Position numbers and translations under genes: made by a program
In this document: positions 9,852 to 41,710 of the stretch, piece after piece
Position numbering within the stretch: position 1 is the first letter of the stretch
Layout of the letters: the number at the start of each line of letters is the position of its first letter
Notes under the pieces: generated by a model
What the model was told of the DNA's origin: nothing
Databases searched by the model: none
The model's input: only the letters and a program-made list of their open reading frames with translations
Assembly (NCBI GenBank): GCA_021234155.1
Contig: JAJEKV010000113.1
Span: forward strand, 992,001 to 1,056,000
Reading direction: 5' to 3'
DNA from: Isoetes taiwanensis
Lineage: Eukaryota; Streptophyta; Lycopodiopsida; Isoetales; Isoetaceae
Length of the DNA: 64,000 nucleotides

Positions 9852-9857
9852 ATGTAT

Positions 9858-9971
9858 GGGGGAAGGGTAGTTGGGACCCCTTTCTAGGTGGCCAGTGGGG
9901 TCCCGCAACCGGCGTTAGCTGGGAGCGGGTCACCGGCCCCTGGAAAAAGGGGGACCAACTCCCCTTCCCCC
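9858..9971. repeat. 5' terminal inverted repeat of the Crypton-like element
   Basis: The left arm starts GGGGGAAGGGTAGTTGG and the right arm ends CCAACTCCCCTTCCCCC. The spacer is GC-rich with its own GGGACCCC / GGGGTCCC words. In the second element (43837-43950) the arms read GGGGGAACGTCACTTGG and CCAAGTGACATTCCCCC. Several positions differ between elements but the arms in each element remain complementary, which points to selection for a hairpin or to within-element conversion. Confidence 0.75.
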
Positions 9972-10199
9972 ACAATATTGAAATAGGGGAGAGAGACTTT
10001 TTTTTTTTTTTTTTTTTTTTTTTTTTTTTTTTTTTTTTTTTGGCTCTGCTCCTCTCTGCGCCATTATTCCGTCGAGGCGCCAGGGCAGACCTCCACGAGC
10101 TCCATCGAGCCAAGTAGGAAGCTCGACGGAAGCGTTTTGAAAGCAATTTTTTTTTGTTGTTACTTGCATAGATATTTTTGTGGCTGTAAGGTTTCTTCT

Positions 10200-12492
10200 T
10201 ACTGATTCTTCTTCAATAGCTGTACCAGAAGCTAGTATTACTGGAGTTGGAGCAGAAAAGACAAATGTCGAAGGTTTCTTTCGAAGATTCTTTAAGTTTT
10301 CATGATTTTTTTATTTTTTAAGTGTTTTTGTCTGGCTTGCAGGTTTAGGGAAGGATGCATTGTTGATTCTGGCGACTAGTGCTTCGGCGAAATGCTCTGT
10401 GGTGTCTTTAGAGTCTGAAAGTAAGATTTAGGGTCGAGATTTAGTTTTTTTGTTTGCATGCAAGTGTTTTATGCATTTTTATTCTTGCAGATGGTTCTGG
10501 AGGTTCAAGATTTCTTGCAAATGAAGGTTTTACTTCAGAACAGCTCGGTTTTGGAGGTAAGACTTCATGCATGTTGGTTTTTTTTGTTCTAGCAGAGGAG
10601 GTTCAGGCGCCTGCACCTGTATTAGATTAGTTATTTGTTTATTAGTAGGTTTAATAGGTTTAGTAGATTGCTAACAGGTTATGATGCTTTCCAGATGCAT
10701 CTGGAGTTGCTGATGACCCATCTTTTAGTCTCGGTATCCCATTTGAGGAGTCTTTGAAGGATGGAAGTTCAGATTTGACGTATGAGCCTGTTGTTGGTGG
10801 GAAGAGCTTGAGTACAGATGTTGGTGGAAAGAATATTGAAATAGGGTCGACTTTTAGTGTGATTACAGAAGAAATAACAGATGGACAGAAGTAATAGTAT
10901 GGATGTGAGTGAGATTACTGATCGACGTCGCGGAAAGAAGCCATTTAAGACTGGGGGGTTTGTTGATTTGGATCCAGAACTTGTTAGCAGCGTGAATAAT
11001 GCTTTTGAGAATCCTTTGGAAACAAATAATGAATTGGTGCGGGGAAGATTTGATGCATGGCGGATGCACATTGGAAAACCAATTGATCTTAAGATTGAAG
11101 ACTTGGAATTGAATAATCTTGCTGACAATTTTGAGCAGTTCATGCTATGTGTGTGTCGAATCAATGGCAAGCCATATCCACCAGACTCGTAAGTGCAGTA
11201 TTTATTTTTCTTTATTTGTTTGTGTATTTTTATTTATTCTAACATGTTTTTTGTTGTGCAGGTTGCAAAATTTATTCCGTGGTTTTAACAGAATATTACG
11301 CCGGGCATAGGATGCTAGGGTTATGAATACGTGTATTGAAGAGAACGTGATTGAAATCTATAAGGATGTCAAATTTATGAAGGTACGGACGGCTTTGGAG
11401 GTTGCAATGGAAGATTCTTTCGCAGGTGGCTTCACTTCGAAGAGGAAGAAGTTAGACATATTGAGTAAGGAAGACCAGTCGAGGATTCTGCTGCATCTTG
11501 TGCATCAGGTTATTACCAACTTGGGGCTCCAGAAGAGGTTCGCCTTTTATTGTATGTCATGTTTTTTGATTCGTGGGGGCAAAGAGTTATATAAGGTCAG
11601 GGACTTTCAGTTTTTTGTTGGGAGAGATTTTGTGAATGAATACTTGGAGTATTGTGAGACCACCAGCAAGAATTGGCATGGCAGCATCAACAAGTGCAAA
11701 CCTGTGGATTTCAGGCAGCCCGTTAGATGTTATGAAGGTGACGTGATAGAGTGTTGGAGGCAGTTGGAGTTCTATCTTCCGAAGTACGAGGTCTAGGATA
11801 AGTTTGGCGGCAGATTTATGTTTTTACAGTCAATTAATCGCTCTAGAAAAGACACATGGTATAATACAAATCATGTGTCATGGAAAACCATTTCTACTTG
11901 GATAAATTGGCTGAAATCTGCGAGATCAATGTTAACTTTACCAACAAGAGTTGCAGGAGTATTGCAATTACACAGATGGCGGTATCAGGTGTGCCCATTG
12001 AAGTCAGTATGAGCATCACAGGTCATAAAAGTGCTGAAGCATATCATCGTTATGATCAAAGTGGAGTTGTCGCAAAAGCTTCTTGCTATGGACGTGCTGA
12101 ATAGTGGTAAGACGTATGGCGTGTCTTTTCATAATAATGTTAAAAATTTGAATGCTGGATTATCTGGGAATTCAGAGAAGGTAGCTTGTTTGTGTTCCTC
12201 ATTTGGAAATCAGCCTCTGTGTGATATCTCCAACAGCTTGAATGTGTCAACTTCTGCGCAGGCTGTTAGTACAGGTTCTGGTAGTCTTGTGCCAGTTGAA
12301 ATAGACGATGCATATATGAATGATTTGGATATGGTGTTAAAAGAAAAATCTGCTTTGAAGAAATATTTTTCGTGACCTTATAGAAAGTGCTGCTGCATCT
12401 GGAAGTGTTTCTATTTCAGGTAATAAGATCGAGAGCATCGTCATTCATGTAGGAAGTTTAAATGAAGCTGGCTCTGTTATAAAATCACTGTA
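10200..12492 (+). pseudogene. Tyrosine recombinase (Crypton/DUF3504-like), broken
   Basis: Probable leader exons follow TTGCAG or TTCCAG acceptors at about 10344, 10491 and 10696. The main frame starts near 10881. Intron 11189-11261 (GTAAGT...GTGCAG) joins 'INGKPYPPDS' to 'LQNLFRGFNRILRR', the SAM-like N domain typical of DUF3504 proteins (QRICH1/ZMYM-like). The catalytic domain follows: 'CFLIRGGKEL' (first Arg), 'TTSKNWHGS' (Lys), 'TNKSCRSIA' (the H-x-x-R box with His replaced by Lys), 'ITGHKS' and 'AYHRYDQ' (candidate nucleophile Tyr). Damage: TAG at 11308 and 11794, a frameshift near 11875, another near 12075, and a further shift near 12370. A C-terminal tail ends at 12492. The family recombines DNA by a Tyr-linked intermediate. 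The recombinase call is firm; the Crypton assignment is inference. Confidence 0.75.
11189..11261 (+). other. Spliceosomal intron in the recombinase gene
   Basis: A 73-nt intron with GTAAGTG donor and TTGTGCAG acceptor preceded by a T-rich tract. Removing it restores the family-conserved junction PPDS-LQNLF in frame. This shows the element was transcribed and spliced as a nuclear gene. Confidence 0.75.
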
Positions 12493-12558
12493 AGTAATGT
12501 TGTTGAATTTGGTAGTTTAGTTATAATTTTTTTTATTTTAATTGTTATGGTTTGGAGG

Positions 12559-39884: not shown

Positions 39885-40282
39885 CAACACGCATCATTAG
39901 TTGCTAAGGAAATTGCTTGGTCAAGAAGGCTACTTAATGAGTTAGACTGTTTGCAAGAAAATCCCACTCAGATTTGTACTGACAGCCAAAGCTGCATGGC
40001 TATTGTCAAAAATCCAGTTGATCATGAGAGGACCAAACATATTGAGTTAAACATTCATTTCATAAGGGGTATATTCAAATGACTTATATCAATACAGCAA
40101 ATCAAACAGCAGATATATTCACTAAGGCTCTTGTTGAAAATAAGTTTATCAAGTTCAGAGAGTCTATGAATGTTACAGGAAATACATGCACTGCATATTC
40201 AGTTAAGAAGACAGTTCAGTTTGCTGAAACTTTACATTAAGCAATGATCAGGAAAATACAGGAATATATGATGAAGGAGGAG
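39885..40282 (+). pseudogene. Ty1/copia RNase H end, second element
   Basis: The plus strand reads 'ASLVAKEIAWSRRLLNELD', 'TQICTDSQSCMAIVKNPVDH', 'RTKHIELNIHFIRG' and, after a frameshift, 'NTANQTADIFTKALVENKF'. It is the last part of copia pol, related to but distinct from the element ending at 29979. It ends in a stop at 40238-40240, then a polypurine tract GAAGGAGGAG and the LTR. Everything upstream is missing. Confidence 0.85.
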
Positions 40283-40848
40283 TGTTGGAATTGACAAGTT
40301 GTTCATCATATATTGGAGCATATAAGGTATGCATGCACTCACAGTTTTATTAACCTAGGTGGTTATGATTCACAAACCTAGGTCTACATGTGAGTAAATT
40401 ATTCAATGGTTATCCAACCATTATTGTATATTAAAATATTTCTAAAGTTGATGAGAAGGTCGTGGCTACTGAAATGGAGCCAAAACCATTTAAATAAGGC
40501 CAACTCATTGTCGGCCTATCCTAACGGCTTAACCGTTGATCAGAAGCCCGGGATTGCTCTGTATATAATACTCAGACCTTGAATATAATGGCACGGTGAA
40601 ATTCGGCACAAATTCAGTCTTGTAACATCATTCAAAGTTGGATCTAAGTTCGTGTTGGGCCCTGAAGGTTTTGAGTCAACTAAACTACAGTAATCGGGTC
40701 AATACCCTTATGAACAGTAACATTCAAATATTTGGCTTATGGTTCTAGTTACATAATTGTTTAAGCAAAGTTTAATTGGTTTTGAAGGAGATATATTGAA
40801 ATCATTATCTAGATTGTTATTGTGACTAAGGCAACTTCATTTGTTTCA
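40283..40848 (+). mobile_element. Ty1/copia 3' LTR, second element
   Basis: Starts TGTTGGAATTGACAAG directly after the polypurine tract and ends about TTTCA at 40848, where CACTA subterminal repeats begin. It shares 'ctacagtaatcgggtcaat' and 'atgaacagtaac' with the LTR at 29977, so the two belong to related families. Confidence 0.7.
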
Positions 40849-41198
40849 TCAAGCCGACGCGACACGTCAGCTCTGTGCGACGTCGTTCAACGACGTCTCG
40901 CTGACGTGTCATGACACGCAGGCCGGCCGTCGTGGAAACAGCAGCAGGCCACGCAAGCCGACATGACACGTCAGCGTGGCCTGCGTCGTTGAACGATGAT
41001 TCGCTGACGTGTCATGACACGCAGGCCGGCCAGCTTGGCAACAACACCAGGCCACGCAAGCCGACGGGACACGTCAGCACAGATTTGCGTCGTTCAACGA
41101 CGTTAACATCGTTTAACGACGTTGTCGCCGTTCATAGATGTTAAGACGTCGTTTATCAATGTGCAGACGTCGTTCAAGGTCGACGATCCCTTGTAGTG
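40849..41198. repeat. CACTA right subterminal repeat region
   Basis: Three tandem units of about 103 bp starting 'aagccgac(g/a).gacacgtcag' near 40852, 40957 and 41059, then CGTCGTTCAACGACG near-palindromes and the TTGTAGTG terminus. It carries the same short words as the left end at 12570-13170, which supports pairing the two ends. Confidence 0.75.
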
Positions 41199-41710
41199 AG
41201 GAGGTGATGCATCCTATGGTTCTAGAATTTGGAAAGTGGTGTTGAATCCGCTGAACTTTAACTCATTGAAAAACTTCAGTGTGCTTTTTACTTTCACTGC
41301 GCAATTTTTTTTTTCTTCACTGTTTTTGGTATTGGAACCTTGAGTGTTATACTGGAGAAAACTTCTAGTAATTGTGCTGAAAGCTTTGACTAATTGTGCC
41401 GAACTTTGAAAACTTTAAAAGCTGAAAGCTGAACTTTGAGTAATGAAATCCGAACTTTGAAAACTTCTAGTAATTGTGCTAAAAGCTTTGAGTGAAGATT
41501 CTACTGTGTGAAAAATATGTATGCTTAAAAAACATGTGTGCCTCTTTCATGAATATGTATGTTGAAAAAAAATGTACTCAAAGACTGTTATGACCTTTAT
41601 TAAAAACTGTGCAAAAGAATTTCAAACACTTTAATTATCAAGTAAAAATTTTAAGGCGACTGGTTAAACCCGTCACCCAGAATCAGGGTACCCAATAAAC
41701 ATTCTGGGTT
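41199..41710 (+). mobile_element. Crypton-like YR element, 3' part
   Basis: Begins with the TSD copy AGG. It contains tandem 'gaactttgaaaacttctagtaattgtgc' units at about 41350-41500 and ends with a hairpin, ACCCAGAAT (41675-41683) and ATTCTGGGT (41701-41709) around GGGTACCC. The second element ends the same way at 44938, with ACCCGGAAT/ATTCCGGGT. No coding sequence. Confidence 0.65.

Follow-up and report, generated by a model that had tools for sequence, protein, structure and literature searches.

The question raised by this locus was whether a land plant carries a DNA transposon with its own spliced tyrosine recombinase and, if so, how its ends might take part in movement. The locus lies in the window, a stretch of 64,000 nucleotides of the lycophyte Isoetes taiwanensis (JAJEKV010000113.1:992,001-1,056,000), where a decayed, 3'-truncated Crypton-like element was found at 9854-12558 plus 41199-41710, divided into two parts by a 28.6-kb CACTA-type insertion. 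Cryptons are known chiefly from fungi, oomycetes, and animals; a large lycophyte family would extend them to land plants. Searches of the genome (1,658,258,908 bases in 1110 contigs) indicated that the window copy probably belongs to such a family, one of Crypton-type DNA transposons with their own spliced tyrosine recombinase, presumed movement as a circle, and DIRS-like ends. The family is Crypton-like, with a new end structure.

The recombinase gene and its relatives in the genome

The sequence-only reading had placed a tyrosine-recombinase gene at 10881-12492, with a clean 73-nt intron. The intron was borne out: it is bounded by GT..AG, occupies the same position in the six relatives whose gene was read across it (L056, L057, L059, L060, L061, and L063), and lies between the N-domain and the catalytic domain. 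The joined exons of the window copy read ...PYPPDS and, past the exon joint, LQNLFRGFNRILRR. The gene itself stood in part, since the R box (RGG at 11572-11580) and the NKSCR...TGHKSAEAYHRY box were present, but the copy carries two in-frame stops (11308-11310 and 11794-11796) and then a frame change before 11880. The proposed profile check was similarly divided. PF00589 matched five of the seven recombinase members (best E 1.4e-7) and passed the cut-off in the readable relative L060 (E 3.6e-7), but its match to the C-terminal piece of the window copy was weak and failed the cut-off (E 0.0038), and the other two pieces of that copy matched nothing. The QRICH1 profile matched three of the seven (best E 0.038). 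In the seven-member alignment R194, K320, R323, and Y355 were invariant and position 346 was H in five members and Q in two; we take R194, K320, R323, H346, and Y355 to be the catalytic residues. The ratio of nonsynonymous to synonymous substitution rates (dN/dS) was 0.11 for L056-L057 and 0.06 for L056-L063, with two further pairs saturated.

Relatives were abundant. The 5'-end query gave at least 68 matches (586 first-look candidates, 40 scored), the 3' coding-end query at least 41 (68 candidates, 40 scored), and the catalytic-domain protein query at least 151 (1250 candidates, 150 scored), several of them free of internal stops; these numbers are lower bounds on matches and not element counts. 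The copies were dispersed, on scaffolds up to 44 Mb, and some were 95-97% alike though at different places in the genome. From end to end, relatives C908 and L058-L062 measured 3.0-4.2 kb, with one spliced recombinase gene. A test for Starships found no DUF3435 captain among the seven members, and the elements are only of that length. Non-autonomous short derivatives also occurred; 20 short copies were examined, and seven of them (L033, L035, L037, L043, L048, L049, and L052) had no credible right terminus and were excluded from the two-ended counts. Many of the genome's short repeats can be traced to this family.

The absence of a reverse transcriptase and of long terminal repeats (LTRs), claimed for the window, extended to the relatives: none of 10 non-recombinase frames of at least 110 codons from four loci (L056, L058, L059, and L060) matched a Pfam profile at E 0.01, a reverse transcriptase included, and C908 has no LTR. 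The sequence-only reading had named two refuting results, a profile match to an unrelated family and a reverse transcriptase of the same element in intact copies, and neither turned up. The central claim, that a land plant carries a DNA transposon whose tyrosine-recombinase gene is spliced, was supported by relatives that have both ends and in which no reverse transcriptase was found.

A profile search of the PDB and searches of the viral_contigs and genome_contigs sets returned no relative. A separate, broken recombinase family (L001 on C31 and L002 on C606) scored above the DUF3504 cut-off in the genome search. The seven-member profile matched it in the N-domain and R box, with the TGHK...Y box in L002, and judging by these matches that family is related to the present one. 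For the present family, the DUF3504 label is thus an indirect one.

Paired ends, insertion sites, and the predicted junction

Five element groups share one layout of the left end, which was absent from the sequence-only reading: a hairpin of about 110-120 bp, then directly the reverse complement (B') of the right terminus (B). C908 has the hairpin at 4-117, B' at 118-145, and B at 3221-3248, with B and B' matching at 89%. The hairpin and B/B' lengths were 109 and 35 bp in L058, 111 and 39 bp in L062, 119 and 28 bp in L060, and 108 and 31 bp in L059, with 92-94% agreement between B and B' in these four. L061, which is close to L060, has a B/B' of 31 bp (87%) and no clear hairpin. Recombinase identity between hairpin-bearing groups fell as low as 34% (L060 versus L062), and the five groups amount to about three lineages because L058, L059, and L062 are related at the DNA level (67-77%). 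Within the group F1, pairing of B with B' was complete (15 of 15 positions) in all but three of the 18 copies; the exceptions, L044, L051, and WIN2, paired at 14. Own pairs scored 14.83 of 15 versus 14.11 for swapped pairs, a gap that is small because most F1 copies have an identical B.

A CACGTG palindrome was observed near the right terminus of F1, L059, and L060, whose end sequences are unrelated, and was absent in L058 and L062. The 3' subterminal hairpin was set aside as a feature, being weak (z-score -1.0 to -3.4 against single-base shuffles).

Insertion occurred preferentially at WTGTW and without target duplication. We compared 20 insertions, 15 of F1 type (18 two-ended copies, with each of three flank-sharing pairs counted once) and five of other groups. 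At the target, the T preceding the core was present in 19, the G in all 20, and the next T in 19; the left-end G belonged to the finding pattern, and the bases beyond it were independent of that pattern. Empty sites supported three insertions, L036, L041, and L046. Joined flanks were searched for eight copies and gave empty sites for two: L041 at two places, one of them gapless, and L036 at four places, the ones examined out of five listed. None of these four has a gap at the joint, and one has a changed base within it. L036 also carries an additional 7 bases, some 11 bp to the left of its joint. The empty site of L046 was the adjacent tandem unit in its own flank. The core GT(AT) is common to element and target; in many insertions the two agree over about 2-4 bases, in some over fewer. 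Elements of the L058, L059, and L062 groups carry C before the core where the target has T, so the T is a target preference and is not copied from the element. A 3-bp duplication of TTG was considered and rejected, as the left flank varies (TTG, ATG, TCG) while the right end is constantly TTG.

On this layout, the recombinase would join both element ends at the GTAT core to give a circle, and the circle junction would then recombine with a genomic TGT. The predicted junction reads ...ATATTGTATGGGGG..., or ...TTTACGTATA... in the L058 and L059 groups, and it folds on itself because the left hairpin and B' complement both ends. Joined right and left ends folded far below dinucleotide shuffles in all eight cases tested (z-score -15.0 to -19.8; energy parameters for RNA; one G was doubled in the L062 junction). 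Across 18 F1 copies and 65 pairs, 1112 of 1162 cells were Watson-Crick and 27 were G-T. More than one Watson-Crick type was seen at 6 pairs, and at 18 once L060 and L061 were added. Shifting the partner by 1-3 columns left 28-50% Watson-Crick versus 96% in register, a gap that is expected in part because the structure was drawn from L042, itself one of the copies. When DNA parameters were used, all but one of 23 junctions had unpaired bases in the core region only (offsets -1 to +4); the exception, L062, had, correctly joined, an unpaired core base and two more that lie further in. The bulge consists of one to three core bases, with none facing them, in F1 and L060/L061; in L058 and L059 three unpaired core bases face two. 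The F1 junction pattern had a single exact match in the genome, at about 1505-1521 of L071 (C766), where two degenerate copies lie head to tail, the right end of one against the left end of the other.

How the elements may move

Two uses of the internal complement can be imagined: the junction could fold into a single strand used by the recombinase, or the complement could splint the two ends, as proposed for DIRS1. Either would bring a single-stranded step into the cycle. At integron attC sites a tyrosine recombinase acts on a folded single strand with unpaired bases near the crossover. By analogy, we tentatively suggest, as a possibility and not as the expected outcome, that the recombinase here uses a folded single strand with its core unpaired, as in attC, or that the complement splints the ends, as in DIRS1. 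The attC likeness is an analogy only. If true, this folded-strand or splint mechanism would link Cryptons with DIRS elements, and the internal complementary region of DIRS could exist without reverse transcription. The structure raises a testable question, whether the recombinase needs a folded or splinted strand.

The family could also consist of ordinary double-stranded Cryptons, in which the hairpin and B' are extra binding sites or leftovers and no single-stranded step occurs. The recombination sites of tyrosine recombinases are usually double-stranded. The circle model by itself accounts for insertion without duplication, according to the available text of the Crypton survey (PMC3212892), and we regard the chances of this explanation as about even. 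Against it speaks that layout, pairing, and unpaired core are conserved between groups whose end sequences differ. We consider it improbable that the family is a DIRS-derived lineage that lost its reverse transcriptase and RNase H, moves through RNA with reverse transcriptase supplied in trans, and kept the internal complementary region. That region and the duplication-free integration do fit the DIRS1 model as far as the source describes it (PMC3266345), but the spliced-junction motif had 0 matches in the genome versus 53 for the intron-bearing exon-end motif (27 forward and 26 reverse, with 1 for the reversed control). The two motifs are unequal in width because the spliced one requires an exon start like that in the F1, L060, and L063 groups and fits these only (L059 would not fit). 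Inverted terminal repeats were likewise absent in C908, L058-L060, and L062, and no genome search for DIRS reverse transcriptases was made. It is scarcely credible that the gene in the window arose as an open frame by chance, or that it is a host gene within a repeat: the copy is broken and its PF00589 match weak, but the relatives have defined ends, dispersed copies, and empty sites, the last of which already contradict it.

Several points speak against the account of a circle-moving Crypton family with DIRS-like ends. DUF3504 (PF12012) matched one of the seven members and did so weakly (E 0.023), and dN/dS was 0.51 in the close pair L060-L061. No circle was seen, and the head-to-tail junction on C766 does not demonstrate one. 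L064 has no terminal hairpin, the right end of L063 was not located, and two of the three group-level features rest on few loci, with one or two copies per non-F1 group. Long inverted repeats may arise and persist without a role in recombination. The available text of the Crypton survey mentions no hairpin or internal complement (PMC3212892).

The same survey, in its Table 1 of 2011, lists Cryptons from fungi, animals, oomycetes, and one diatom and no land plant; according to it they presumably move as circles of DNA and have direct repeats of 4-6 bp (PMC3212892). CryptonS elements, from oomycetes and one diatom, mostly have TATGG termini according to that text, and the F1 and L060 groups here start (G)TATGG. 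They share the tyrosine recombinase, the lack of a reverse transcriptase, and short terminal repeats, a likeness by description only, and they differ from the present family in its land-plant host, conserved intron, and left hairpin with the junction complement. CryptonA and CryptonI are likewise recombinase-only elements with commoner short derivatives, but no terminal repeats are reported for animal Cryptons in the text available (PMC3212892), whereas here both ends are defined and paired. High copy number and short derivatives are not new, because the Cryptons of medaka already show both, with more than 2,700 copies and the short derivatives more abundant (same text). In the DIRS1 model, as given in the part of the source consulted, the internal complementary regions match the two termini and overlap each other at a junction of 3 bp, and no target duplication arises on integration (PMC3266345). 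The present elements are alike in having an internal region that is complementary to both termini and spans the junction, and in inserting without target duplication. They differ in that no reverse transcriptase, RNase H, or MT was found, inverted terminal repeats are lacking, introns are kept, the complement lies near the 5' end and not, as in DIRS1, near the 3' end, and the core is shortened in the complement. An arrangement linked in DIRS1 to a model of retrotransposon replication was found here in an intron-keeping element with no reverse transcriptase found.

Among the papers listed by searches of the open PMC library, none has a plant Crypton in its title or the opening of its abstract; Repbase and subscription papers may record some. 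A 2024 review of plant genomes lists Crypton among DNA transposons with no plant example in the text available (PMC11630846), and a 2020 review, equally in its available part, states that Cryptons are undescribed in Arabidopsis (PMC7385966). In the available main text of the Isoetes taiwanensis genome paper, the words 'Crypton', 'DIRS', 'transposon', and 'Helitron' do not occur (PMC8566536).

The window copy and its neighbours

The features of the window were as follows.

9854..9988, + strand: left terminus, starting GTATGGGGGAA; hairpin A-A', then B'
9974-9988: B', reverse complement of the right terminus known from relatives
10832..10855, + strand: extra 24-nt inverted copy of the right terminus, within the upstream exon
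10881..11188, + strand: exon piece with the recombinase N-terminal domain; the exon starts further upstream in relatives
11189..11261, + strand: the 73-nt intron
11262..12493, + strand: exon encoding the catalytic domain of the tyrosine recombinase and its C-terminal part, interrupted by stops and frame changes
12559..41198, unstranded: CACTA-type insertion, ends CACTACAA.../...TTGTAGTG, foreign to the element
41199..41710, + strand: the element's own 3' part, stopping 68 bp before the relatives' terminus
43833..45006, + strand: non-autonomous relative, 1174 bp long; has the left hairpin, B', and B as its right terminus

The span 9852-41710 does not form a single 32-kb element: the CACTA-type insertion splits it and is flanked by a 3-bp duplication, AGG, at 12556-12558 and 41199-41201. 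The stretch 41199-41710 belongs to the same element as its cut-off 3' part, because in L015, L016, L017, and L020 the counterpart of 41199 onward directly abuts that of 12558; in L014 the two are about 11 bases apart. A right terminus at 41710 was rejected, as five relatives extend 68 bp beyond it, including the terminal ATATTG that the window copy lacks. The non-autonomous relative announced 32 kb away was therefore the element's own 3' part, but a true relative does exist at 43833-45006, 34 kb from the element's left end and with both termini present. In a comparison of 14 short copies it was closest to L051 (97.1% identity over 1178 aligned bases), which has different flanks.

The window copy (at 41710) and L016 lose homology at one point, after CATTC[C/T]GGGTT inside the 3' subterminal hairpin, which may be a common break point or an alternative end. 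The inverted copy at 10832-10855 was exact in six elements (window, C1045:40x kb, C909, L011, L016, and L020), had one substitution in L021 and L022, and had three or four in C908 and L018; it may be a putative binding site for self-regulation. The CACTA-type insertion contains other long frames, for example 28671-29627 (+) and 35983-38100 (-), which, judged by eye, resemble retrotransposon remains.

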